In this document: positions 22,627 to 61,995 of the stretch, piece after piece | How positions within the stretch are numbered: the first letter of the stretch is position 1 | Layout of the letters: each line of letters opens with the position of its first letter | Translations under genes and position numbers: made by a program | The notes under the pieces: model-generated | What the model was told of the DNA's origin: nothing | Databases searched by the model: none | Seen by the model: only the letters and a program-made list of their open reading frames with translations | From: Datnioides undecimradiatus | Lineage: Eukaryota; Chordata; Actinopteri; Lobotiformes; Datnioididae | Length of the DNA stretch: 64,000 bases | Direction of reading: 5' to 3' | Assembly (NCBI GenBank): GCA_008933995.1 | Contig: WARS01000030.1 | Span: 2,373,501-2,437,500, forward strand

Positions 22627-23757
22627 AGACAGTTGAATATTTTTTATATATATATAAAAATTCCCATATCGCCCTTCGCGGGCGGTTCCTCCTCTGCAAG
22701 CTCGGGTCCTCTACCAGAGGCCTGGGAGCTTGAGGGTTCTGCGCAGTATCTTACATGTCCCTAGTATTGCGCTTTTCTGGATTGAGATGTCTGTTGTCTT
22801 TCCTGGGATCTGTTGTAGCCACTGCTTCAGTTTGGGGGTCACCGCTCCGAGTGCCCCAATCACCACAGGCACCACAGGCACCACTGATGTTTTTACCTGC
22901 CAGGCTTTCTCCAGTTCTTCCTTCAGGCCTTGGTATTTCTCTAGCTTCTCATGTTCCTTCTTCCTGATGTTACCATCGCTTGGGATTGCGACGTCCACCA
23001 CAACGGCTTTCCTGTGGGTCTTGTCCACCACTACAATGTCCGGTTGGTTAGCCATTACCATCTTATCAGTCTGTACCTGGAAGTCCCACAGGATCTTTGC
23101 ACACTCATTCTCTATCACCTTTGGAGGTGTTTCCCACTTGGATCTGGGGACTTCCAGCCCAAACTCTGCACAGATGTTTCTGTACACTATGCCAGCCACC
23201 TGGTTATGGCGTTCCATGTATGCTTTTCCTGCCAGCATCATACATCCTGCCGTTATGTGCTGGACTGTTTCTGGGGCCTCTTTGCACAGCCTACACCTTG
23301 GGTCTTGCCTGGTGTGGTATATCTGGGCCTCTATCGCTCTTGTGTTCAGGGCCTGTTCCTGTGCTGCCATGATGAGCGCCTCAGTGCTGTCTTTCAGTCC
23401 AGCCCTCACTAGCCATTGGTAGGATTTCTCCATGTCAGCCACTTCTGATATCTGTCGGTGGTACATCCCATGCAGGGGTTTGTCCTCCCATGAAGGTTCG
23501 TCCTGGGTCCACTCGTCTGGTGTCCACTGCTTGAGACTTTCACTGAATACTCCATCCAATGGGGCCATCTTTCTGATGTATTCCCGGATCTTGGATGTTT
23601 CATCCTGAATAGTGGCCCTGATGCTCACCAGTCCTCTGCCCCCTTCCTTTCGCTTAGTGTACAGTCTCTGGGTGCTGGACTTGGGGTGGAACCCTCCATG
23701 CATGGTAAGGAGCTTTCGTGTCTTGATATCCGTGGTCTGTACTTCATCCTTTGGCCA
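22627..23757 (-). mobile_element. 5'-truncated LINE, R4/Dong/Rex6 type, with open 3' ORF
   Basis: The minus strand carries an open frame from the truncation near 23,757 to a TAG near 22,710, with methionine-initiated length 330 codons. It holds the C-terminal part of a non-LTR retrotransposon polyprotein: a CxxC...H...C zinc motif (CRLCKEAPETVQHITAGC, about residues 139-156) and a restriction-enzyme-like endonuclease core PDIVVVD...KAVVVDVAIPSD (about residues 219-240). That domain order is typical of REL-endonuclease LINEs. No reverse transcriptase is present, so the copy is 5'-truncated. Beyond the stop is a GC-rich tail (ACCGCCCGCGAAGGGCGA) ending in a TATATA run, the usual 3' end of this fish family. 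AAT-rich sequence abuts the 5' end. The copy cannot move by itself. Confidence 0.8.
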
Positions 23758-24290
23758 ATTTATTATTATTATTTATTATGATTACTGGCAAGGCATAGCT
23801 GTTTATTGCCTGGACCTTGTTCTTGCATTGATCTCTCATCTCATGGACAAGATATATATATCTTTTGTTACGAAGGCGAATGGTACCAAAGGCTTTTGAG
23901 ATGATATGAAGACAATTTCAGAATGGCAAAAAATAGTTGAATGCAGCCAATAGCTTATTGAATGTATGTGAGCAGTGAGACCTCAGCACTGAAAGTACAT
24001 GTCTTTTTATCCAAAAGTCTGACACCACTTTGAAAATGTAATATTGTTACTGTTTTTGTCATTATTTTCTGTATTTGTAACATTGACCGAGTTGACTCTT
24101 TCGTATCAAAGGTCAGATTTCCTTGTATCCTTTCCGTTTGTGTTCAGACGGCACTCAGGTGGATTTAAGTTAACTCAACTTGAAGCCAATATTCACCCAT
24201 TATAAATACTATGGCTGTACCTGAAGTTACCAGGAGATCATTGCTTACTAAGCTGTGTTGTACCAGTGAAAAACATCAGAACTAAGTGAA
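23758..24290. other. Non-coding stretch
   Basis: Nothing recognised. It begins with an ATT-rich run (23,760-23,778) that may be target or duplicated sequence of the adjacent LINE. Confidence 0.4.
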
Positions 24291-29387: not shown

Positions 29388-30486
29388 TTACAGCTTCTTG
29401 CTGGTTCTCTTGAGCACCACAGAACCGGCTTTGGAGGTCTAAAGAGAGACAAAAAAGGAGTAAATCAGTAAAAGGAGGAATATATATTATCCCAGTGACG
29501 TCATTGCAACAGTGTCAGGAAAATAAGAGTTGGATTTAATAGTTCCTAAAATAATTTCACTGATGGTACTTGTGTATTTTGGCTTGTTGCTTATACATCT
29601 GCAGCAAGACACAGTCATTAAACACTGAAATACATATCTTTATAACTTTCACTCAGAAAATGTATTAAACATCTCACGCTGACTCAGGCTGAAAGGTTAA
29701 ATGTGAGTTGCTTGTTCAGATGTACTACTCCGTGTTTGAGGCTGTTTTTAATTGTTAGCAGAGGACTTTTCAGCCAGCTGCAGAAATAAAACATTAATAA
29801 CTCTAATAATCCCTGTGGGGTGTTGAGTGTAATAACTGCTGTCATCGTGCTAGGTTATCGCCACCAAAAGCCTTGGTGAGCGTGTTTACCTCGATGAGCT
29901 TGCCTCCACAGATCTCAGAGGTATGGTGGTAGTTGGGGAAGGTCACGCTCAGCTTGCCTCCCTCCATGTGCACTGTGGCCTGAGAACACACAAGTAAGAA
30001 TCAGTCCAAGGTACATTTGTCTTCCCTTCCCTCTCTAATGGGTTTATCATCATCTTCATGGATTCATATCTCTGCCCTGCACAGCTGGAGCTATGAGCTC
30101 TGGAGTATTTTTCCATCCTACCTTGAACTTCTTTCCTCCGATGGTCTCCATGTCGCACTCCTTGCCAACGGTAAACTTGTTGGTGACCTTGGCGTTTGTG
30201 GGGTAGACCTGGGTCCAGGAGAAGTTATCGCCATCCTGGGTGACCTCTGTGATCAGCTTGTAGTCACGGCCCTTCTCAATGATGTCATCAGGGATACCTA
30301 GGAGCGAGAAAAGAAAAGGAGTGTTAGGATATGATAGCACAAGTGAGTCCAGAGAATCAGAGAGGACAGCGAAGTAAACTGCATGTGTTGTTTTGGCTGA
30401 GATGGGTGTTAGATCTCACCAAGCAGCTTGCAGAACTCGTCGTATCCCTCCTGGGTCTCAGTTTCCCATCTTCCAGCGAAGGCCAT
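29388..30486 (-). CDS. fabp6: Fatty acid-binding protein 6 (gastrotropin, ileal bile-acid-binding protein)
   Basis: Cytosolic carrier of bile acids in enterocytes, a member of the intracellular lipid-binding protein family with a ten-strand beta-barrel. Four coding exons on the minus strand join in phase: 30,486-30,420, 30,297-30,122, 29,979-29,890 and 29,438-29,388, giving 127 residues, the normal length. All introns are GT-AG and the four-exon layout is the family rule. The product opens [20 protein letters not shown], has [17 protein letters not shown], and ends [11 protein letters not shown]; the NFSWTQVYP and [15 protein letters not shown] stretches are gastrotropin-like rather than heart, liver or intestinal FABP. 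A TATA box lies about 92 bp upstream of the start codon and an IR-1 element of the FXR type lies farther upstream, matching known bile-acid control of this gene. No frame break is seen. The subfamily call is firm but from memory of the family, not an alignment. Confidence 0.92.
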
Positions 30487-43494: not shown

Positions 43495-46400
43495 CTACAC
43501 CTTCTTGCCTTTCTTCCTGGCAACATAGCTGTGGTAGTAGAAGTTACTGAAGGGAGCGATGAGGCTAAGGGAGTAGGCCAACACGACCACGTTCATGGAG
43601 TCAGGGAAGTCACAGTCTGCAAACAGGTTGTAGGTGGTGTGGATGGTTACTATGAAGAACTGGAGCTGGGAGACAGACAGGCAGACAGGCAGACAATCAT
43701 GCAGACAGAGGAAGAAAGGGGGAAGAGAGAGCGTGTCACACTATCAGCACACACTGGGTGACAGAGCAGCACTTCCTCCTACGCCGCAGCCTGCATAAAG
43801 ACATAAAAGCCAAGTTCTTACACTCAAATGCAGAAAATTTCACACACACACACACACACACTTTCTATCTATCTGTCTGATCAAAACAAAAATTCAATAT
43901 AAGCTTTGGGAAAAACTGACATTTGGATGGAAGTAGCAAAATATGTCAGAGCACAAGTCACGGCAAAGGTGAAAAGTCAGAACGAGTCTAGCAACACATG
44001 AAACTGAGACTCTTTATGGTTTTTAGATCTTATTTCCTTTAGTGATGTAGTGTAATTATCAGACTACAATGAATGACTGTATTTGTGGACACAGTCTAAT
44101 AAATAGTTGTAACAATGTTTATTCTTTATGGTGTATTGTATCCTACAGTCATGCTGTTGTATGTTTGCTACGTGGTGTATATGGTGTTGAACTTTCTCAT
44201 TGTTTGTACTCACATTGTAAACCTTACAACTTGCTTACAGTGCAGTTATAGTCACGCCACAGAGGCAAATTGATTTTGATGTGATGCATCTTGTTTGCAT
44301 TCCCTCCTTCATGTCTATATATTGTTTGTCATTCCCTTTGTCTCTTGTTGATGCTTTTGCTGAAATTCATGGTGAATTTCTGCATATTTCCCAGTGTTTT
44401 TTTGAGTTTCTGTGTGTGATTTGGATTTTTGCACTGGTGCTGCCTGCCTCAACCCCCAGAAAGCTTCATCTTTCTTTTTGTAAAATGAACCTTTTTTGAA
44501 TTGCCAGTTCCTGATCCAGTTTTGAATCTGCATTTGGGTCCCACTCCCAGTGTTTTCCTGGTACCCACATAGCAAATGTAATATTTGAGTGTGAGACAAG
44601 AAGAAGAGAGACTCTGCAGGACCTCCTACAACTTTGCTAGCTGTACAAATAGTACCTCTGTGCTATTTCTGAATTACTCAATTTCCAATTGAAGTCGAGA
44701 TGCAATTTAAAAATGACATTTTAACCATCTGAGATCACATCATCATGTGCATCTATTTCACAATGTGTCCCAAATAATGCCATCTTTGTTTTCTTATATC
44801 AAAATCTGATCCAGTTTCCTATCTTGCATTTTGCATTTATCACGTGTGATGAAGTAAGCTTGAACCAATCAGTTTCCAATATCATTACGTCCACCTATCA
44901 ATCAAATGTTAAGTAGCACAAACCATTCGTTAGTCAGCTGTCAAAGGCACGTCCATGTGTCTCCACTTCAACAAGTAACGCAACAGTATGTCCCACCTGT
45001 CTATCCTGTTTCACTCGCAAATAAATAACGATATGGAAGTCGCATAATCTCAGTATGCCATTTGATGTGTGTCCAGCAGAAGGTTGGAGAAGTACCTCCA
45101 TAATGAAGAGAGAACAGCTGCAACACAATTCTAATTAAATGATCTCATGAGACTTTAATGTCATATACATAGCTTTTATTTTAATTATAATCTAAAAACA
45201 GTACTAAAATATCAGTGCCCATGCTGGACTGATAATAAGATTGCTTCAGTGCTATCTACTGCAAGGCCTGCATTGCGCAGATTGTGCTGGCTCCTGCAAG
45301 AGTCTCCAAAGCGTCACTACAATTCTGCATGTAAATGTCAAATTATGCTGTAGTTTGGTCGATATCCATATGTTTTACAGAGACACTATAGAATTCAGGG
45401 TGCAGGCAGGGATTATGTGTATGGACATATTGTACGTTAGGCATCTATCCATTCCTCTCCATACACACACACACACACCTCCTGTTTCAGTGTCTAATAA
45501 TTACCATTCAACAATACAAAAGAAACTCACTCATACACACAAAGACATACAATCTCCAATCTCCCCAATCAACCCAACAATCCTAGCATCAGTTCACCAA
45601 ATTGCAAAGCCAACTGTTAATGAAGGCTTGGGGGGGGTCACCTCGGAGGTCAGGACAATTATTGTTACATAATGGCAGTCAGTCACCATACTGACCTATA
45701 TATGTTGCAGAGAGGGAAAAAAACCCTACAGGATGCATTGTCTCCTCATCAAGCCATTAGAAAACAGATGGTCCAGTAGTTAGTTGAGGAGCATTGGTGC
45801 TGCTAATCCGTCTAGTTATGCCAACAGCCGGTCAGAACAATGACAAATGAAGCAGGAGGTCTCATGTTCAGCCTCAGTGAGTGGAGTACTTTAAGCTTTT
45901 TGAACATTCTCGGATATGTTTGTCGGGCGTTTGAACAGTGAGAGGGGAGAGACTTGCCAATGTGTTTCATCTCTGGCAACATCACATACATTATGCGGAA
46001 AGAGAGATTTTATTCAAAGATGCCAAATTGGAGTAAGAAAGTTGGCTAAGTGGATTAATGCCACAGGTGGAATGGCACACTCTCTTTGCTTAAACAGCAT
46101 GCAAAATATTCAGAGTGAACTATGCTAAAACATAAAAGAGACTAAAAATTCCCCAAAGAGGTGATCCGAGATGCTTTTGCCACATTTACATAGTAAAGTG
46201 GTTCATTTATAAAGACAGAATGTGATAACATCGTAAAATAATAATAGAGAGGGAAAAGTAGGGAAGGTAGAGGCAAAGTGCACGTAGGAAGTAATGTCAC
46301 ACACACACACACACAAACACACACCCAAAGTAAAATACCGACCAACTGCAGGGAGGTGAGGTAGCGTTTCCACCAGAGGTATTTGGACATGCTCGGCCCC

Positions 46401-48708
46401 AGCACTGCCAGGCTGTAGTACAGATACATCACTACATGGACCAGGGAGTTGATCAGACCAATCAGGAAAGCTACGGACAGATACGCAGGATGAGTTTGAC
46501 ATAGTATGTGCATATGTGTCATGTGTGTATTCTGGGTGAATCACAGTGTACTCACACTGGCCACCAGCCACATATTTAACCCCAGCCCACCAGTTGAAGA
46601 TCATGGTGGCGTGGTGGTAGACGTGGAGGAAAGTCAACTGACTGTTCTTCTTCCTCAGGATGAAAAATATCTGAAGTACATGCAGACACACAAAAGGCAG
46701 GCACAGAGTAAGATCTGGAGGAACAGATAAGCATGTACGAATAGATCTGTAACATATGTGCTGTATGTGTGCAACAAAACATTTGGAGGAATTTGATTTT
46801 AGCATTGAAAAGCTGGCAATTTATAACAAACATGGAGAGCTACAGTGATTCAGAGTTGGGTGTTAGGTTCAGGTGTTTGCCACCTCAACAGGGCCTGAGG
46901 TGACACCTGGAGTCACACAGACGCGCTATGCTGATGCTAGCTGAGGCTTAAAGCCAAAGATTGATTCATGGATGAATGCTGATATTGCCAATTGAAATTG
47001 GTTGACTCAAGCTTTTTTCCACAAAGAAAAATGGTGTCTTATTATTTTTTTTCTTTATTGTCAAATAAGTGCAGAATATGATCTAAAAGGCGTGTTTCAT
47101 TTCATCTTGACTTTAAATAACAAAGAAAAAAGATTCTTCACAACTTCTTCTCACTCCTCTCCTCTAGGATATACTCACAGTGTCACTGAGCTCTATAACT
47201 TTGGAGAAGTAGAACCACCAGCACACTCTGGCCATCTGTCCAATAGGATGGAAAATATGTTATTATATATATATATATATATATTAACATTTAATGAACT
47301 AATTTCTATTAAGAAAAATTGTTTTACATGTTTTTGGGAGAACGGCTTTATTAAATCAGTAATTTAGATCAAAGCTGTGGAACTTTATCTATAAACCTGC
47401 TGTATGAGGTGCGGTGTAGTGAGCAGATTTACCCTCATGGCCAGTGGGCTGTCGCTGTAATCGACTGGCTGGCACAGCAGACTGTATCTGGCCAACCAGG
47501 AAGAAGCTGTGAACTGGAAAGACAAAAGCTGCTTTCATCTCTGCTTTGGTGTCTCTCACTCAGCACAGGGACCTCTCATCCCATTTTGTCACACACGGAT
47601 TGGCTGTGAATGAGCGAAATCACTTCGTGTTTCACTGACGACTCCCACAATGGACATAAAATACTGTTGTATCACCTGAGATGACATTTGTCTGACTTCT
47701 ATGGAGCAATTATATCCTGTTTAAAGATGCACGCATTTTTAGGACACTTGTTGGCAGCAGACACACAACAGAACACAACCTGGCATACAATATCATTACA
47801 ATTAAGTTGATAACAGCTGCCTATTTATATGTCAAACACATATGGAGCAGTTAATATTCATATGAAGTTGTGTTTTTGGCCACCTGCCAAATGCAAAGTT
47901 TCATTTCTCACTATATACCGGGTTCTTTAGCTCCTTAATGCCCTACTGTGTTTGTCTGTCTGCCGTTTGGTGCCTTGTATTGTGGGAAATAAGTGAAAAT
48001 CAACCAAATCAACCAAAACAGGAACATTGGGCCACAAACCAAAACAATATGCTGAAAGATGCTACAAAGCTCTGCAGAGGTGAGGTGAATTGCAGAACTG
48101 AGTGATTATTCTCAGACCTGTTTCATATTATGTTATTTGATCCATAGCTTTAAAGCAAATGAGCAGATTTATTTGGGACGCTGGACTTTGATGCCAGCTT
48201 GAGTGATCTTGGTTTTCAGGGTGCAGTAGTTCTTAGGATTCAGTTACTTTGTGGATGTTGACATGCAAACAGCAGAAAGCCCTACTCCTGCCCTACATTG
48301 TCCCATAGTGACATCTTTCCAGCCTGCAGCTTCATGAAAACTTGCACAAACAGCGGGAGCAGTACCTCATAGAACATATATGCAGACAGGCAGACCATGG
48401 CGAAGTTGTAGACTATCAGGACAGGTTTGAGGTTGACTGGCTGCTTTGTTGCCATCAGCTTTGTTCCCACCCATATAATGACCAGGTAGCACAGAAAGAT
48501 ACAGCTGATTGGCACAGGAGAGTAGACCAGCGGCCAGCTGTCAGTCCTCTTGTCTAAACAGAGAAAAAGCAAGAGAAAGGCTTCGGTCAAGTAAATTTCC
48601 AATAATTTATCATAGAAATATGCCAGTGATTATATTGATAAGTGAAAATACAGACTTGCCTCCATTTTCCAGAATCCCCTGGTAGAATAGTTGCAATTTC
48701 TGCCACAT
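43495..48708 (-). CDS. elovl8: Very-long-chain fatty acid elongase, ELOVL8 type
   Basis: Condensing enzyme of the ER fatty-acid elongation cycle, adding two carbons to long-chain acyl-CoA. Seven coding exons on the minus strand join in phase: 48,708-48,660, 48,553-48,366, 47,513-47,433, 47,235-47,179, 46,670-46,556, 46,470-46,343 and 43,665-43,495, giving 262 residues. Seen: [13 protein letters not shown] near the N-terminus, QPVDYS, VIELSDT, FILRKK, the histidine box HVYHH (141-145), [27 protein letters not shown] and a lysine-rich end KKGKKV like ER-retention tails. Several hydrophobic segments fit a multi-pass membrane protein. The body resembles ELOVL4, but the shorter tail and motifs match fish ELOVL8 best; a or b paralogue is not decided. 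Exon 1 ends AG|GCAAGT, a GC-AG intron. A further exon at 50,396-50,391 could add five residues. Confidence 0.9.
43666..46342 (-). other. elovl8: elovl8 last intron (2.7 kb)
   Basis: Runs from the donor TTG|GTCGGT at 46,342 to the acceptor CTCCCAG at 43,666. It contains CA microsatellites at 43,841-43,861, 45,461-45,478 and 46,297-46,324 and no exon-like sequence. The donor is weak (GTCGGT); a stronger-looking GTATTT four bases on would break the frame. Confidence 0.6.
47263..47284 (+). repeat. (AT)n microsatellite in elovl8 intron
   Basis: About eleven AT units just upstream of the short 57-nt exon 47,235-47,179. Confidence 0.85.
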
Positions 48709-48716
48709 GGTGAGAG

Positions 48717-50396
48717 CCTGAAATCGCTGTGATGGATACACATGAGCAGGAGAAACTGCCAGTAAGACACAAGTGAACCCAAAGAAACACCATTGTAGAA
48801 ACAATATTTGGAAAAGTGAACAATATTACAAAGGCACTCTTAGTGTATTCAGAAAGGCATTTCAAGATGCCTCTAACAAAAGAGAATAAAAGGAGAATGC
48901 ATAAGTAGATGAAACAGGAGGTCTTTAACTTCCAGGGCAGTATTAATCATTAAATTGTAGTTTAATTGTTATCTCATTTACATTATTGGATGAACTCGTA
49001 ATGTTTTAAAATTTATAGCAAATTTGCACACTGATAGCATTTCTCTTCCTTTACATTTTCTCTATTACTATGCCTTAATGTTGTGTATACGCAATTATAC
49101 ACAATCCATCACATTTCAGCAAATTACAGCTATTTGTACTGAAAGGTAAGCAGTTTATTTTGCTTTCGGTAAAAGCAGAATTTTGCAACAACTGACATCT
49201 TGCAGCTCACTGTGTGTCAGACATTCATCACCTCATTTGAAACAATCTTACGTAAAGAAGAACACTCCACCGCAAATTTGATTAAGGCAGCCACAGATAA
49301 TCTGGATTATAATTCAAGGATTCTGTTCACTAATCCAAACGTATCTCCTGATAATGGATAATAACCGATAATCCTTTTGATGAATAGCTGCCTAATGTGG
49401 ACAGCAGTGACAGGGTGATGAGTTTCCATACCATAAACGTGACAGTGCTGCCATCTAGTGTTTGTTGTGTGCAGAGCTTTTAGCTGCAAAGCGCGCGTGT
49501 TAGGTAAAGTTGGGGACTGAGGAATCATCTCTGCCTTGTTATCTTCATCTCAATGTGGATCAGTGCCCATAGCTTCTAGGTAAATTGTTACATAAAACTT
49601 TGCTTCTAGTGAAGTGTCAGTTATAAATGAAGTTATTTTACTTTTCATTCTTGAGTGAGTTCCTTGTGTGATTTGCAATAAATTCGCTTTTTTTGTCAAT
49701 AAAATGTTTTTATGTTGAGTGTTGCATGAATTGCGTTCAAGGCAAAGCAGTTTTGTTTAAATTCAAAATAGTAATTTAATTGACAACGCTTAGGGCCATG
49801 GAATCAACTTGTGCAGTATTTACAATGCAGATCACTGACTGTAGGTCAATGTGCTGGGATTTAGTCTGCACAGGTGAAATGGCATTACATTGAGCAGTGA
49901 GCAATGTCAAATACATGCAGTCTTTAAAAAGGTGAAAGCTCTAATGAGTGTTTTTCTACTGGAGCGTTCATTTAACATGTCACCGCTGAATGTAGTGAAA
50001 GCACTGATTACTGTATTGGCAGAAGCAGCGGGGTGTGTGGACAGTGCTAAGTAGTTTAGCCTCTCCAGGAGCCTCCTAACTGGGATTAACAGAGGAAAAT
50101 CCCCAACAGGGCCAGGCCTCCACAACCTGCAGAGGGTTATTGTGGAGGCTTCAGACCTTCGACACTGCTCACTGGAAACCTAAAGAATCTGCAGCGATCT
50201 GCAGCACTGAACAGAATCACAGTTTATACAGACACCCTACATGCAGGTTATCATGGGAAATTATGACAATCAATGAACTTTCAGGTGTTTTAATCAAAAC
50301 TGACTGTTAATAACTACAAAAACAATCAATGAAAACTTAAAAGATTCAATGTTAAATGTTCTTTTTTAAGGATGGGGTAAGTGACCTTACCTTCAT
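48717..50396 (-). other. elovl8: elovl8 first intron and possible start exon
   Basis: Nine bases before the ATG at 48,708 lies a good acceptor (ATTTCAG, exon start 48,717), so an upstream exon must exist. At 50,396-50,391 the minus strand reads ATG AAG followed by GTAAGG. Joined, this gives MKALTMWQ in frame with the main protein, for 267 residues. A TATATAAG word at 50,418-50,411 is only about 20 bp upstream of that donor, too close to act as its TATA box, so the true 5' end is open. The rest of the interval is unremarkable intronic sequence. Confidence 0.4.
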
Positions 50397-50510
50397 TCTG
50401 ATGGTGGCCGCTTATATATTCTCTCCTCAGCTCTGTTCGTTCAAACCATGCTGCATCTCAGCCATGTGTGAGCAGCACTGAGGTAATCTGCCTGTTCTCT
50501 CTGTGTATAT

Positions 50511-50544
<34 letters not shown>

Positions 50545-50854
50545 GTGTCCTGTACGACATATGGTAGCGTGTTTCCTTCATTCTAGCGTAGCAGGTCAAG
50601 TACCTGCCAGCTAAATCTCATCCATCAGAGGTTCAGTGTTGTTCAGAATATGCGTTACTGTTGCTTTAAGACAACTAGGTTCATTCGATCTAGATGATGA
50701 TAAAAACATAACTTTGAATGACTTAATGATAGTATTCAGATCAGTGTGCTGCACAAAGTGACAGTATGTTAAACAGCTCCCTCAAGCATTTGTATAACTC
50801 AGTTAATATTTTCTATGTCTGCACAGTAAAATTTGAAGCTGCACCTGACAGCTG
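50397..50854. other. Intergenic, with TG array
   Basis: A (TG)n array occupies 50,513-50,542. Otherwise nothing is recognised. Confidence 0.5.
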
Positions 50855-51262
50855 CTTATCTTAGCTTAGCATTATGGCTACAGACAGGTGAGCAGAGCTA
50901 CCTGACTGTATAAAGGCAGCAAGCAAAATCCCCTGAAACTAGAGCAGCTTACTGTATGTAAACTGTATCAAAACTGGATTTTGTATCCAGTTTGTTGAAT
51001 TCTCACAAAAAAATGTCAAGTATAAATATGAAAAGTTGTGGTTTTACAAAGATTTATGGAGCAGAATAATTCAAGAACTTATTCTAGCTCAACTTGGCAG
51101 TGTGTGAATGAAGCACACCCAAAAAAAAAAAAAGATTTGTGCGCTTTAGAGGTGCCCGAGGGTGGATTGTTTACCCTCAGACAGGGACAGATTAGCTGTT
51201 TCCAGCCTTTATGCTAAGCTAACCAGCTTTTGGCTGTAGCTTCACATTTAGTGTTCAAAAAG
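50855..51262. repeat. Old teleost interspersed repeat
   Basis: GCTTATCTTAGCTTAGCAT at the left and GCTGTTTCCAGCCTTTATGC, then TAAGCTAACCAGC and TGGCTGTAGCTTCACATTTA at the right are the two ends of a well-known non-coding fish repeat; CGCTTTAGAGGTGCC lies between as expected. An A-tract near 51,120-51,134 interrupts it. Confidence 0.6.
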
Positions 51263-51269
51263 CAAGGCT

Positions 51270-51320
51270 TGGTTTAAGGTTAGGCTAGGGTTAGGCAAGT
51301 AGTGGTAAGGGTTAGGGTCC
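51270..51320 (+). repeat. Telomere-like GGGTTA words
   Basis: AAGGTTAGGCTAGGGTTAGG and GTAAGGGTTAGGG form a short degenerate block of TTAGGG-type units. It may be a small interstitial telomeric-like tract or chance. Confidence 0.4.
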
Positions 51321-51366
51321 AGTCTCCAGGAAATGAATGTAAGTCAGTGTATTGTCCTTTGAAGTG

Positions 51367-51368
<2 letters not shown>

Positions 51369-51406
<38 letters not shown>
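51369..51406 (+). repeat. (TG)n microsatellite
   Basis: Nineteen TG units without interruption. Confidence 0.92.
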
Positions 51407-51407
<1 letters not shown>

Positions 51408-52620
51408 ACACTTGATATCTAAATTTATCAAAAACATTTCAGACTGTCATTGACAAAGAGCAGCAGACTGCACTCACTTCAGGATGTATTGGATGCCACT
51501 GTTTAATGGAGATACACGTGGCTTTATGACTTAGTCAGTGAACTGCGAAAATGATGAAGAGAACAGAGAACAGGTCCAGGATCAGGACTTTTGGGCTAAA
51601 AATAATAGCAAGAGCAACAGAGGGATCATTCTGGATCTGGCTTTCATCCAACCACTTTATCAACAACCTCACTGCTTCAGATGAACCCACCAAGGACATT
51701 TGTGGAAGATATATTCAGAGGAAACGGCTATAGAGTGTCAGTGGAGCCTAACTCTGAAGAACTGATCAGATGACTCTCTTAAAGGGAAGCTCAGTGGAAT
51801 CAGAAAATAGATGTTTGTGGAGCCCAAACCATGCAGCTTCAAGGCTCGGGCTAGAACAGGAAACTACTAGGTACTTTAACACGTACCAAGAGAGAGCAAG
51901 GAGGGTTAAACATGTCTGAGCTTGGATTATCAGGAGATGTTGGCATGAAACTTTCATCAGCACTTCCTGTAGGACAATACTACAAGCTACTTTCTGAGGG
52001 CAGGGAGGTGGTCGGTTACTCCTCTCTCCTCTCTTGATGATTTTTGATGATGGCTGCAATTCAAGAGAGACTGTGAAACCCTGCAGATCACTGAAAAGGA
52101 AGTCATGCACAGGAGTCACTACCAGGCACCCGTCTCTTCCTAATCAATACGCTATATATAGAAAGATGGCTCACTATCTTTCCTCCCTGGATGTTCACCG
52201 GGTCCCCATTGTGCAAGATCAAAACAAATCATTGTCATACTGTATTTTATTGTGTGGAAATGCATTATAGCATAGATTAAAATAACTCCTGTAACTTTGA
52301 TTTTGATTGTGCTGTATCACTCAGTGTTTTATTATTACTGAATCATTAATATCTGTGAGTATAATCTATGGACTTGTTAAAATAAAACGTAGAATGCTCC
52401 ATGAGTGCTTGAGTTTCAGAGGGTGAACATACTGAAAGACACAGTTTTAAAATGTATTTTGATTTTAATGGAAAACAAGAGACTAAAGGTTTATTCTACA
52501 TTCAGGTCATTAATCATTAATGATTAATAAGTAGTTAAGTAAACAAACCGATCTACAGTTAAAATGCAAATGAAGCAGTGTACAGTATGTTAATCCAGAA
52601 ACACTGTATATTGCTGGTGT
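51407..52620. other. Non-coding stretch between elovl8 and selenop2
   Basis: No gene recognised. Frames at 51,551-52,270 on either strand have no motif. Confidence 0.45.
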
Positions 52621-52622
52621 GA

Positions 52623-52628
52623 TTTATT
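52623..52628 (-). terminator. selenop2: Possible selenop2 polyadenylation signal
   Basis: The minus strand reads AATAAA about 600 bases beyond the stop codon and 315 beyond the SECIS candidate, a plausible end for the transcript. The region is AT-rich, so a chance match is possible. Confidence 0.4.
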
Positions 52629-52943
52629 ATTTCGAATGATTTAATTAGATTAGTATATTAATGTAATTAATCATACCACCTCCCAAATGCCTGCACACGC
52701 TCAAATGAATAATCAGCACTTGAAAGTCTTCACACATGCTATATATGCTTGTGTTATGTGCACATGGTAATCTGGTAGCACAGCATGCTGCAGTCAGACA
52801 GGATTGACAGAAGCAGAAACTCAAACAGGAGGGAAGATGTCTGGACAGTGATCCGACTGACATTTGCTCTGCAGCAGTCCACAACATCCTCCAACTCCAT
52901 GTGGATGATGGTAAGCATCAATCCATCCAGTCTTTCCACACAC

Positions 52944-52990
52944 ATCCATCTACAGCCCCCTGCAGGCAGGTTTCACACCATAGACTTCAT
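52944..52990 (-). promoter_or_regulatory. selenop2: SECIS element candidate in selenop2 3' UTR
   Basis: On the minus strand the core ATGA (52,990-52,987) is followed by 13 bases, then AAA (52,973-52,971), then 23 bases, then GGAT (52,947-52,944), which fits the SECIS pattern ATGA...AA...NGAN. TCTATGG pairs with CTGTAGA to form the helix above the quartet, and CCTG pairs with CAGG around a four-base loop, giving a form II shape with an extra apical mini-helix. Helix I (CCAT with GTGG) is weaker. It lies about 230 bases after the stop, on the same strand as the Sec codon, as needed for eukaryotic selenocysteine insertion. Folding was done by eye. Confidence 0.7.
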
Positions 52991-53223
52991 TAATGGGGGG
53001 AGACAGGGTAGGACTGGCTACTTCATCCACACAGAGGTGTGAGGTGTGGACATGCTGACAGAGAAACTGCAGGCTGATGAATGTTCAGACAGATTCATCT
53101 GCTCAGTGAGCTGCTGTTTGTCTGTATGTTCTGCCATCAAAGTAGATATATCTCACCAAATTGAAACTAAACTAACTAACTAGATAGAGAAGAAGAAGCT
53201 AAGTATAAACACAAGTGATTTCA

Positions 53224-55889
53224 CTAATTATTCACTTCCATCCCACCATGATGACTGTGGTTTCCAGATGGCTGTTGATGATGATGCTGATGATGATGCT
53301 GATGATGATGATGATGATGATGAGGGTGATGATGCTGCGGGTGGTGGTGGTGGTGATGACTGGGATGATGCATAGTTTTGTTCTTAACTGTGCCATGTTG
53401 GGACTTGTTCCACTGTGTGGTGTTATGGGTGTGATGGTGATGAGAATGATGAGGATAATGATGATGGTGGCTGTCATGGTGACTCGCCCCAGGAGTTGTG
53501 TCTTCAGCGTCCAGTTGAATTGTGGATATTGTAGTTGTCTGGCTGACATTAACCTGCGTCATGTCATTCTTCATGGTGCTGTTCCTGTGACTTGACAATG
53601 TTGAGTTAAGCTGGGGGAGAAAAAAACGTGTGTTATGATTAAAGTAAGGGTAGTAGAGGCTAATAATGCAACTTTGTGTATTAGTATCAATATAAACTTG
53701 TCATGTTGCCTTTTTACACATCCAGCAAACACGATGCAACATTCTGAGTTGTGTTTCTGGACAATATTAGCCCTGCTATGGTCTCTACCAACTCCTGAGG
53801 GAAACATCTAGTTCTGTGGCTGCAGAGTGCTTTGCTATGTTCACCAGCGAGTTGTGAGCTTTGTCCATGTGTACAATGTGTTTATCAGAGATTGTTGTGT
53901 TTCTATTCACAGCCACTTCTATTCATGTGCAAGCGTTTGTGTGTGCGTATGTGTTCTGTGATTACTCACTGTGCAGTTGCAGATGTTTTTATAATAAGTG
54001 GCTCTGATTGCAGCCTCTACATAGGGATAATGCAGGAAACTGTAAGGTAGCACTATATGAAAGGTGAGCAGGCCACACCTAGAAAAAAAGAGAAAGAAAT
54101 GAAATGTTAACAGAAATCACTGTGATTTCATTGGCTCTTTCCTGATTATCACAATTTGCATAAACAAATGATATAGTTATGGATTTTAAGACTAGTTTAA
54201 AATACTGTTCTTTTTGAATGCCATTCCAGGTCCTTTCAAAGCACTTTCTTTTTAATATTTCATATTGTTGATGACTCAAAACACATTGTGAAAGTCTTTC
54301 CCAAGAGTGACATCTATCTTATAGTTCAGAAACTGGTGAAATATGATTATATTTCCTTTCTCGTCTCACCAGTGAGCCAAAACCTCCTGGAATTTTGACA
54401 AAAAAGAGTTTCAGATGACCTTCATGCCTTGAGGAGGTGGCTTGCCTTACCTGTCATAGATCAGGAAGTCATCTTTGTCACCATCCAGAGCCTCCCACAC
54501 ATCATTCTGAAAGGGGTCCTGCTGGTACACAGGAACACCGGGGGGCGCTCTTCTCTTCAGCTCCCAGTACATTGCTCTGGACTGAGCCTCTCGCTCATTT
54601 ACTATCATGAAGGACACCTCCGTCAGGTTGCTGCGGTTCAGCTTGCTACGCAGGCCTCCAATGCTACAGGGGGACAGATAGAGACACCAATGCTTTTACT
54701 GAAATCAGTTCAGTGAGGGCTGCAATGTGACAGACATTCATTAATGTGAAAAAGTCCTGCACCATAGATTTAACGTGAAATATGAGAATTAGTCATTAGT
54801 CATGCACTGAATGTGCAGCAGCACAATGTGTCACAGAAAAGGCAAGATTAAGATTAGGATTTCCTTTATTTGTCCCACAAAAGGGGAAATTTGCAGAAGT
54901 GACAGCAGCCAGTAATGCTGCATTCATGTGCCTAGCAAATATCAAAGTAAGGAATAAGTGCATATGATAAAATGTAATAGGATGGAGAAACAGAAACAAT
55001 AAAAAGTTTCTTACAATCTTTAGTTTTGTCCTTGGCCGATTCCTTTTCCTTTGTGTTAAAGAGAGAGTCATCGCTAACATTTAACTGTTTTTTTACTCCT
55101 CTGCTCCCTTTTCTCCCTTTTCTCTGGAGACAATGTCCAGAGTCATCTGTTGTAAACTCCCCTGATAATTTAAGTTGATGTGTTGGCAGATTTGATCTCC
55201 CACAGTTACCAACAACATCATGACAGTGACGCTCAGTAAAACGAACCCAGCTATCTTTTCATGATCTAAAACATTCACTGTAATAAAGGATTGTTCACAT
55301 TAAAGCTACAGTGCCCCCTTCTGGCAATGAGAGCTATTACATCTACACTGCCTGCCAAGCTCCTCGCTGCTGTAGCCTACTCTGTAGCTGTAGTTGCTCC
55401 TCCCTTTAACTCTGGTGAACCAGTCATCGCTGGATGACAAAAAATTTATGATCCAGTGCTGAAATGCAACAACAGACCCTAGATTTAAATACTAAATACT
55501 ATGAATGTAATCTATAAATCTATATACTATGAAATAGAGACAGTTATATGTGGAGGTGATAGGCTAAATCAACATTCATTTAACGTGCCCTCTGTTGTCG
55601 ATGTTTGCATCGATACTGTATGTTAAACTACTACTATTGCTCTGTGAAGTCTGGTCTCTTACTTGAAGGCCTGGGTGAGACAGAACTGTCAGCTGGCTTT
55701 CAGTAGCGCCACCACAACCACATTACCCAGCAGCTCTTGCATGGGTGCTTGTCCCTTTATTTTCCAGGAGGGGGCAGGTTTGCAGATCCTGGAGGCGTCG
55801 TTGTCCCCCTCCACTATCAGACTCACGTGTGAGGCCCACAGCAGACCTGGCAGGGCCACATACAGCCATAGCGACAAGAGAGAATGCAT
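53224..55889 (-). CDS. selenop2: Selenoprotein P, single-selenocysteine type (contains in-frame TGA)
   Basis: Secreted selenoprotein with a thioredoxin-like N-terminal domain. Four coding exons on the minus strand join in phase: 55,889-55,663, 54,663-54,451, 54,078-53,970 and 53,610-53,224, giving 311 residues when the TGA at 55,691-55,689 is read as selenocysteine. Seen: a signal peptide (MHSLLSLWLYVALPGLLWA), CKPAPSWKI, VVVVALLKAS then U67-Q-F-C70-LTQ (the UxxC redox motif), FMIVNE, YQQDPFQNDVWEALDGDKDD, FLIYDRCGLLTFHIVLPYS and KNICNC. The last exon carries Asn-linked glycosylation sequons and a tail with about 40 histidines in some 85 residues (from residue 226). It stops at TAG with no further Cys/Sec-rich domain, as in fish sepp1b/selenop2 rather than selenop1. 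A 5' UTR exon probably ends at 56,781. A standard caller would cut this gene at the Sec codon. Confidence 0.92.
54664..55662 (-). other. selenop2: selenop2 intron with repeat tail
   Basis: The intron after the Sec-encoding exon. It contains a reverse-oriented LINE/SINE-type tail at 54,841-54,905. A 61-codon minus-strand frame at 55,093-55,278 has a hydrophobic stretch (FVLLSVTVMMLLVTVG) but no splice-site or homology support. Confidence 0.55.
54841..54905 (-). repeat. LINE/SINE-type 3' tail in selenop2 intron
   Basis: The minus strand reads CCCCTTTTGTGGGACAAATA then AAGGAAATCCTAATCTTAATC, parallel to 8055-8113 on the plus strand. Ends in CTTAAT-type units. 5'-truncated. Confidence 0.6.
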
Positions 55890-56056
55890 TGTCCCCCCGT
55901 GGCTGGCTGGACTGAATCTACCTGATGAGAAAGACGTGCAGTAATCTGTGTTACATTGACACATGGGTGCTGCTTGTTGAGCCATCATCACTCTTTACAG
56001 AACCTGCGTCCAAGCCTCCACAATGCACTCAACGGCCATCATATGAGTGTGGTCTA

Positions 56057-56780: not shown

Positions 56781-56842
56781 CTCAGTCCTCTCTTTGTACT
56801 GTGACCCACATAAACAGACAGTAAACCCCTGTTGTTTTTAAA
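56781..56842 (-). promoter_or_regulatory. selenop2: selenop2 probable first exon and TATA-like box
   Basis: The minus strand has CCTTTAAAAAC at 56,842-56,835 and, about 55 bases on, a strong donor GGACTGAG|GTAAGATC (exon end 56,781). The coding exon starts with an acceptor TCTCATCAG at 55,922, 32 bases before its ATG, so a non-coding first exon is needed. This pair fits, with transcription from about 56,810. Confidence 0.5.
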
Positions 56843-59434: not shown

Positions 59435-61199
59435 TCAGGACAAAACACCTATCAGCTCCTCCTCATCATTGTCCCCAACACCTTCTGTGGGACTGTCACA
59501 GGCCATGAGTCCCAGGCCCAGCTCTGCCAGCATCTCACAGCTCATGTCCGTCGTCACCATGATCTTCGTCTCCAGGCGGTTACACAGAGTTCTGTAGGAG
59601 GGCAAAGGGTATCCCAGCTCTCTCAAGTACTCATAGCCTTTTGTGCCCACTGCGCAGCGGATCTTTCGGGCCTTCAGGATGGTCTCTGGAGACCAGACGG
59701 CGCGTCGGGAGCGTTTGGTGAGGGATAGGGCACGAATCTGGTCCTCGTGCAGAAAGTTCTGGAGACCCTTCTCAATGCGATCGAGTCGATACAGACGCTT
59801 TTTCATCTCCTCTGCCTGGCAGAGACAGAAGAAGAAGATCAGGGCTTCTTATTCAACATTCACACTTTCGCATTTATGATTCCCGGGCAGCTGCCAACAT
59901 CTAGTTAATTGGAGCCAACTGACTCGGTTTTTATTTGATTGCTTTGTTGTCCCTTCAAAGAAAAACAAACAAAACAAAAACAATAAGAATGCAGCCATCC
60001 CACCTCTTTCTGTAGCCTGGCAGTGTGCTGCATCTCCTGCTCCAGCTGTTTCTTCAGGAGCTGACACTGCATGCAGGGCTGTTGGTCCTCCGCAGTCCGT
60101 TCTGTGTCCTCCTCCTCCAGGCCAGGCAGAGGGGTGCGTCTGGCATAGCCATGGTCCCCGAAGTTCAGCTCCTTCTCCACTATAAAAATAACCAATATCA
60201 GCAGCTAATATTGGATTTCCTGTCTACAATGTGATGCATTTTACATGCTTTGACATTGTTGATACTAGTGCACTTCTATTAAAAAATATGGCTGTTTATC
60301 TTCCAGTATTTATGCTTGCAGCTTTCTTGAGAACCATCGTCTTAACGTGACACTCAACACTGGTCTTTCAAAGTATTATACATTGTTGATCAGGGACTTT
60401 TTCCAGGTTACAGGAATTGTTGGCCAGAAACAACCTGTTCCTGTGGTCCAAATACCTGCAGGAATCCCCATATTAGATACATCCCCACATGTACCATCTG
60501 AAATGAATTAAGAAATCCAAAAGTGTGAATCGAGTCAATCTTGATTAACTTTGACCTGGATGAATGAGCGCCTCCACAGACATTAATCAAGAAGGAATTT
60601 TCTTGCACACTCAGTTACCTGGTTCAGGTTTCATGGGCAGTAAGATGTATGGGGTAGTTACTGCAGGGTAAGGAGGGTCACCGATGCTGAACAGGGTGGG
60701 GATGGCATTGGGCTTTAGCTTCTTGCCTCCAGCCGGAGACCTGGCTATCTCCTCAAACTGGCTCTGCTCAAAATGGTCCTTTGGGTGACAGGGATATGCA
60801 TGCATTACAGCAACCTAATGATGTTCCCAAATACAAGAGACAACAACATACATGCAATGACAATTAAGTGAACCAGGAAGATAATTTACCATTAAGAAAT
60901 AAAAAAAATTAACCTGTCACTTCATTTTTGGATGGATTATGTTGTTCTGTTTGACTCTGGGTCGTCCTCTTTTGGACTGACTCATCTTCACTATACAAGT
61001 GCTTTAACTGGCTCACAATCAAACATGAAACTCTCTGTGGACTCACTACCTGACAGAGTCTGGAGTGAGGAGTTGGTTCGAAGTCACGTCGACAGTTCAC
61101 CACCCATTTCTTCTTCCGGACGGGGTCTTGGGGGAACCTGAACAGCTGTTTACCTATGCTCGTTGAATTGGAGCAGTTTGGAGCGGAGCAGCCGCCCAT
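59435..61199 (-). CDS. THAP-domain protein with HCF-1-binding motif and transposase-like C-terminus
   Basis: Probable sequence-specific DNA-binding nuclear protein. Five minus-strand exons join in phase: 61,199-61,050, 60,778-60,619, 60,497-60,456, 60,179-60,004 and 59,815-59,435, giving 302 residues. The THAP zinc finger (C2CH) is complete: C4, C9, W32, then C49 and H52 across the first exon junction, closing with AIPTLF (75-80). A DHGY motif at 126-129 fits the HCF-1-binding consensus (D/E)HxY, just before a Gln/Glu/Leu-rich coiled coil (about 145-195). The C-terminal part (SPETILKARKIRCAVGTKGY, then ELGYPLPSYRTL) resembles the helical segment of P-element/THAP9-like transposases; no catalytic domain follows. 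The third exon is only 42 nt and keeps the frame, so it may be alternative. Which THAP paralogue this is I cannot say. It is head to head with toe1. Confidence 0.85.
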
Positions 61200-61995
61200 C
61201 GCAGCAGTTCAAGCGAACAGCAAAGCTAAATTTAGCAAACGGCAAGATAGCTTGGCTTGCAATGACGCTCAGATAGAGACTTTAATCATTCTATTCAGCT
61301 AGTAACTACTTACGCGGTGTAAAAATACAAGAAAAAGTTACATAACAGCTAAAGGTTTACTCCTAGAAACCAAAGTGTCGCCCTACTGACTTTTACACCC
61401 GTTAATATAAACACAATTTAAAATACTTTATCAGAGGTAAAATGTTTCTGACTTTGTTTGAGCCAAAATGGCGCACTTCATCTAGCTGGATAAGTATAGT
61501 GACGTTTTATTTTTAGGTGTCTATTGTAGACGCCTGCTTAAAACATTATCAAAAAGCAAAACGTCAAACATAAAAAACACTAAAATAGATAGATGTACAC
61601 ACTTTCATGATTAAATTAAAAATTTATTAAGTTTTAGAAAAATATTCCTGCATTCAGCTGGGAATGCGGTTTATTTGTGTTCAGAAAATAATCCAACTAG
61701 CAAGGCATTTTATGTCAGAGGACCCCAAGAAGCACGTTGAAATGTTTACGGTGGATTCGCTGTACGCTGTGGACCACAAGTACTTATAAATGAATAACTG
61801 TTAAACTAGTTAAACTAGTTAAACTAATAACGAGAAACTGTTATATATAACCGACCAGTAATGTATTTGCGTTGTGCAGCTGATAACGATTACCATTTCA
61901 AGATAGTTAGCTAAACAGGCTAATAAATGCTAATGTTCAATGTAGCCGTCGCTAACTTCAGGAAACGTTTGAGATACACCTAAGTTATTACAAAC
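61200..61995. promoter_or_regulatory. Shared divergent promoter region, THAP gene / toe1
   Basis: The two start codons point away from each other across 796 bp. No TATA box at a suitable place was seen for either gene, as usual for housekeeping bidirectional promoters; there is no obvious CpG-dense block. The stretch includes AT-rich sequence and a triple GTTAAACTA repeat at 61,801-61,826. Confidence 0.5.

Follow-up and report, generated by a model that had tools for sequence, protein, structure and literature searches.

A 64,000-nt stretch of Datnioides undecimradiatus contig WARS01000030.1 (the window, whose positions serve as coordinates throughout) contains what we regard, at a probability of roughly 95%, as the orthologue of fish SelPb (Selenop2, Sepp1b): the predicted product is a selenoprotein with a thioredoxin fold that is probably secreted, carries a single Sec within a UxxC motif and has a His-rich C-terminus. 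SelPb has been described as a protein with a single Sec, one type-2 SECIS and a His-rich region, in which the Sec-rich tail is absent (PMC2397514, PMC5133445), and the window gene is assigned to this subfamily because its structure, its signals and a SelPa gene in the same genome fit the published description. Its status as an orthologue is proposed on the basis of architecture, neighbours and paralogue, rather than of a tree. The gene looks intact, an ordinary, well-formed SelPb of a kind already described; set beside SelPb/Sepp1b/Selenop2 of fish, birds, frogs and early mammals, as far as PMC2397514, PMC5133445 and PMC6301783 portray them, no difference is shown.

The gene is read from the minus strand, where four coding exons of 227, 213, 109 and 387 nt join into a single 936-nt frame that runs from ATG to TAG, with GT-AG at all exon borders, one internal TGA, and no other stop or frameshift. 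The predicted product, of 311 residues, consists in order of a signal-peptide-like start (judged by eye), CKPAPSWKIKG...LLKAS-U-QFCLTQ, ...KDDFLIYDRCG, an N-x-S/T linker and the His block. Exon 2 (55663-55921, coding part 55889-55663), delimited by frame reading and the SelP_N match, follows the acceptor CTTTCTCATCAG with a 32-nt leader and the ATG at 55889-55887, and encodes the signal-peptide-like start together with the first part of SelP_N, including UxxC. The remainder of the thioredoxin-like domain is encoded by exon 3 (54663-54451), and exon 4 (54078-53970) contributes a Cys-containing segment (CGLLTF...ICNCT); the coding part of the last exon (53610-53224) comprises the linker, the His-rich C-terminus and the TAG (53226-53224), with seven N-x-S/T sites.

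Upstream of the ATG there is probably a non-coding first exon (56781-56814, minus strand; recognised by sequence inspection, its start site guessed), which would match the layout of SelPb in zebrafish and medaka, for which five-exon models with accessions and a non-coding first exon have been presented (PMC6301783). Its candidate donor, GAG/GTAAGAT at 56781/56780, lies 0.86 kb upstream of the acceptor that ends at 55922, and a TATA-like TTTAAAA is located upstream (56842-56836, minus strand). At the other end of the gene, a candidate polyadenylation signal, AATAAA, occupies 52490-52495 on the minus strand, with others nearby (e.g. 52628). An earlier, sequence-only reading of this DNA had described a TGA followed by FCLTQ and three further phased exons, all of which is reproduced by the 936-nt frame and its GT-AG borders; the minus-strand placement, the probable non-coding exon 1 and the SECIS candidate go beyond that account. 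The earlier reading had also predicted that standard annotation would cut the gene short or divide it.

The internal TGA (55689-55691, minus strand; context AS-U-QFC, next base C) is predicted to specify Sec at residue 67. It stands in a UxxC (U-Q-F-C) within the first coding exon, a feature of the selenoprotein P family, and the product matches Pfam SelP_N (PF04592) over residues 32-273, with an E of 8.8e-79 and a score of 264.6 bits versus a cut-off of 23.2, which excludes a chance match. The combination of one internal TGA with a TAG stop, that is, a single Sec without a Sec-rich tail, is a feature of the SelPb subfamily, and no Sec/Cys-rich remnant was seen when the 3' UTR was inspected by eye in its three frames. 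Not every SelPb has just one Sec: in salmonids, 1 to 4 have been reported per SelPb gene (PMC6301783), so the number of Sec is variable within the subfamily; here it is one. The placement of this TGA in a UxxC redox motif, and a true TAG stop with no C-terminal Sec cluster, had been proposed before and hold in the present frame; the proposed identity, a selenoprotein P with one Sec and of the fish selenop2 type, is backed by the SelP_N match, the SECIS candidate, the stem-loop 3' of the TGA, the exon phases and the SelPa paralogue. Residues 1-183 found no match in a PDB sequence search, NCBIfam returned only one weak thioredoxin-fold domain match (19.9 bits versus a cut-off of 100), and a viral-contig scan yielded six pattern stretches, none of them a relative.

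A SECIS candidate is located 3' of the stop, at 52937-52999 on the minus strand. Its layout is ATGAA, 12 bases, AAA, a CCTG/CAGG apical ministem and a 3' GA core (AUGA, AAA and GAU in the RNA), and the presence of the ministem makes it a type-2 candidate. The Rfam model SECIS_1 covers it over positions 1-64 of 64 and brings the AUGA, AAA and GAU cores into alignment, but the 16.8 bits obtained fall short of Rfam's gathering score (35). The match is listed only for a 141-base query, with an E of 0.65; in that query a bacterial family, matched by chance, has the better value (E 0.043). As a control, the same model was applied to this genome's SelPa gene, where its two matches scored 29.3 and 20.9 bits, likewise below 35. 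At the gathering threshold Rfam gave no match in the whole window, and at E 10 it gave 18 matches in the 4.5 kb from 49500 to 54000, SECIS among none of them; snoRNA-type matches on the GATGAT array were set aside as simple-repeat chance.

A SECIS pattern was drawn up with the candidate already in view, so its test is not blind. It matched once in the 743 nt examined of the 3' UTR, and twice in the 2500 nt 3' of the SelPa stop, at both SECIS_1 sites. When the UTR was shuffled with dinucleotides preserved, 2 of 500 shuffles reached the candidate's score and 7 of 500 contained any match; over the whole window, on both strands, the pattern matched eight times, with three matches tied at the top score. 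The folding energy of the region is not special (z -0.87, and -0.6 in a second run). According to PMC5133445, Sepp1b mRNA has a single UGA and a single SECIS, which is of type 2, as are both SECIS of fish SelPa. A SECIS in the 3' UTR is a feature of the selenoprotein P family, and a single one, of type 2, a feature of the SelPb subfamily; it is present here as a sequence candidate.

The RNA just 3' of the TGA is predicted to form a second candidate signal. Fifteen bases past the TGA, the spliced RNA can adopt the hairpin CAGGCCTTCA-ACAT-TGGAGGCCTG, with an unbroken stem of 10 bp that includes one G-U pair. Its 5' part is the end of exon 2 (55663-55673) and its 3' part the start of exon 3 (54651-54663), both on the minus strand, and because the arms sit in two exons the hairpin is possible in spliced RNA only. 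For the 75 bases 3' of the TGA the folding energy is -31.3 kcal/mol (z -3.3 versus shuffles), a stability equalled by four of 2000 synonymous recodings, 60 of which contained an equally long hairpin. None of 58 segments of 75 nt, taken at 15-nt steps along the coding sequence, is as stable; six of these overlap the hairpin, and one non-overlapping segment reaches -28.0 kcal/mol. SREs, stem-loops that assist recoding from a position 3' of a Sec codon, are known (PMC8704476, PMC5133445), and the window stem-loop resembles those described there in being stable and shortly 3' of the Sec codon; unlike them, it has its two arms in different exons, and an SRE role would be assigned to it by analogy.

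These signals bear on whether the locus might instead be a decaying SelP copy, in which the TGA is a real stop. Such a pseudogene would account for the in-frame TGA itself and for the low SECIS score, but it sits badly with 936 nt devoid of any other stop or frameshift, with intact splice sites, with a near full-length SelP_N match, with a SECIS candidate that has its core bases, and with a stem-loop past the TGA whose stability is unusual. We therefore consider decay very improbable, and retain the reading of an intact SelPb gene.

The same genome (581 Mb, 497 contigs) was searched with the SelP_N profile, and among the best candidates scored there were six exon matches, in two genes: the window gene and a second gene on contig C328 (7558000-7564500, about 7.56 Mb; minus strand), delineated by frame reading, SelP_N and SECIS_1. 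In this second gene the frame reads through 17 in-frame TGA, the first of them in a UxxC, to a TAA and gives 405 residues; a Sec number of 17 has been reported for SelPa of zebrafish, common carp and two pufferfish (PMC4699779). Since the C328 gene is thus a 17-TGA SelPa, the window gene is taken as the other paralogue, SelPb. With Sec written as Cys, the two proteins are 39% identical (76/197, E 2e-41), and the genes have in common SelP_N, a TGA in UxxC, a His-rich region, a SECIS_1 match, a long stem downstream of the first TGA (-24.1 kcal/mol in SelPa, a value without a control run), and the exon phases, with 203/213/118 nt before the last exon in SelPa versus 227/213/109 in the window gene. 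SelPa differs in its 17 TGA with a Sec-rich tail, and in having two SECIS_1 matches versus one. A genome search with SelP_C gave no match, a null that is uninformative because the Sec-rich tail of this SelPa was likewise missed.

The shared exon phases and N-terminal domain would also be expected if the window gene were a truncated SelPa that had recently lost its Sec-rich tail, instead of an old SelPb paralogue. Against this stand the separate 17-TGA SelPa, only 39% identical to the window protein, the 3' UTR frames, in which no Sec-rich remnant is apparent by eye, and the neighbouring genes, which are compatible with a SelPb locus. A THAP-domain gene, with the THAP domain split over two exons, occupies 60614-61208 (exon 60912-61208 above the Pfam cut-off; 60614-60814 below it, at 18.6 bits), and exons of an ELO-family fatty-acid elongase, ELOVL4/8-like by eye, lie at 46142-48629; both genes are on the minus strand, as is SelPb. 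In our reading the elongase would be elovl8a. The two neighbours are compatible with the teleost cluster toe1-thap1-elovl8a-zswim5-urod (PMC12025145) and with the SelPb locus, which is described as syntenic with human chromosome 1 (PMC6301783). Recent truncation of a SelPa thus appears highly unlikely, and the window gene is best read as SelPb.

Three further features of the window were observed. An open frame at 59435-59848, downstream of the THAP exons and without a Pfam match, may belong to the THAP gene. At 30056-30415, on the minus strand, there is a Lipocalin_7 / fatty-acid-binding-protein exon (E 2.5e-26), which we take to be gastrotropin-like. A 353-codon open frame (22711-23772, minus strand) matches zf-RVT weakly, at a score under the cut-off, and may represent the last part of a LINE-type reverse transcriptase.

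The His-rich region that is a feature of the SelPb subfamily is retained: from GASHH to the end, the tail comprises 88 residues, 41 of them His, in agreement with the roughly 40 in some 85 residues counted before, with 16 His in the densest 20 residues and a longest run of seven. The sole comparison made is with SelPa of the same genome, where the best 88 of the 120 residues from the start of the last exon to the first C-terminal Sec contain 22 His, mixed with Gly (best 20 residues, 10 His; at most three in a row; CAT to CAC, 22 to 12), so that the window tail is about twice as dense in His. Tail lengths of other fish SelPb were not found in the literature searched; among these proteins the length and density of the block may be unusual, as the earlier reading supposed.

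Within the block, at 53276-53334 on the minus strand, lies a triplet array of CAT with CAG/CCT interruptions (59 bp, 19.7 copies, 85% match), and 16 of its 19 whole codons encode His. The last exon as a whole has 30 CAT and 12 CAC codons, among which CAT is not significantly clustered (p 0.08 for runs and 0.06 for the longest succession; 20,000 permutations). A plus-strand open frame at 53209-53595 was dropped as a mirror of the His codons. The sequence-only reading had raised the possibility that the tail grew by expansion of CAT/CAC codons; the array speaks for this part of its account, the lack of significant clustering and the array's share of only 16 of the 41 His speak against it, and repeat expansion of CAT is faintly suggested.

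These observations also bear on the view that triplets expanded recently in this lineage, that most of the His block arose in this way and that it has little function; this question concerns the tail and leaves the identity of the gene untouched. Beyond the array itself, an uninterrupted run of seven CAT, three HHHQ units near each other and the doubled His content relative to SelPa would fit such an origin; the unclustered arrangement of CAT and CAC and the limited reach of the array do not, nor does the report of a His-rich region in both SelP forms (PMC2397514). On balance we hold this origin to be possible, if somewhat unlikely. A further conjecture is that triplet slippage contributed to lengthening the SelPb tail in this lineage, which would now be an arm of 41 His able to bind metals or glycans. 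The product would then be a redox enzyme with one Sec, tethered to surfaces, and the length of its tail could differ between individuals and species; this we put forward as a doubtful proposal.

If the gene works as its SelPb architecture suggests, the SECIS would recruit the machinery for Sec insertion and the TGA would thereby be decoded as Sec, a recoding that the stem-loop 3' of the TGA may assist. The U67/C70 pair would then carry out redox chemistry outside the cell, with the His block possibly binding heparin-like glycans or transition metals and so holding the enzyme at surfaces; secretion of teleost SelPb is, according to PMC6301783, still awaiting confirmation. SelPb would not be a bulk selenium carrier, because the Sec-rich tail is absent, and that role would fit SelPa.

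SelPb is reported to be absent in nearly all placental mammals (PMC3316567, PMC2397514), with the armadillo named as an exception (PMC2397514). The gene in D. undecimradiatus offers a clean case of a selenoprotein gene that is legible from raw sequence, with TGA, SECIS candidate and splice-junction stem-loop all present. Its one-Sec form, combined with a long His arm, would separate redox activity and surface binding, two roles of selenoprotein P, from the transport of selenium, a separation that is testable.
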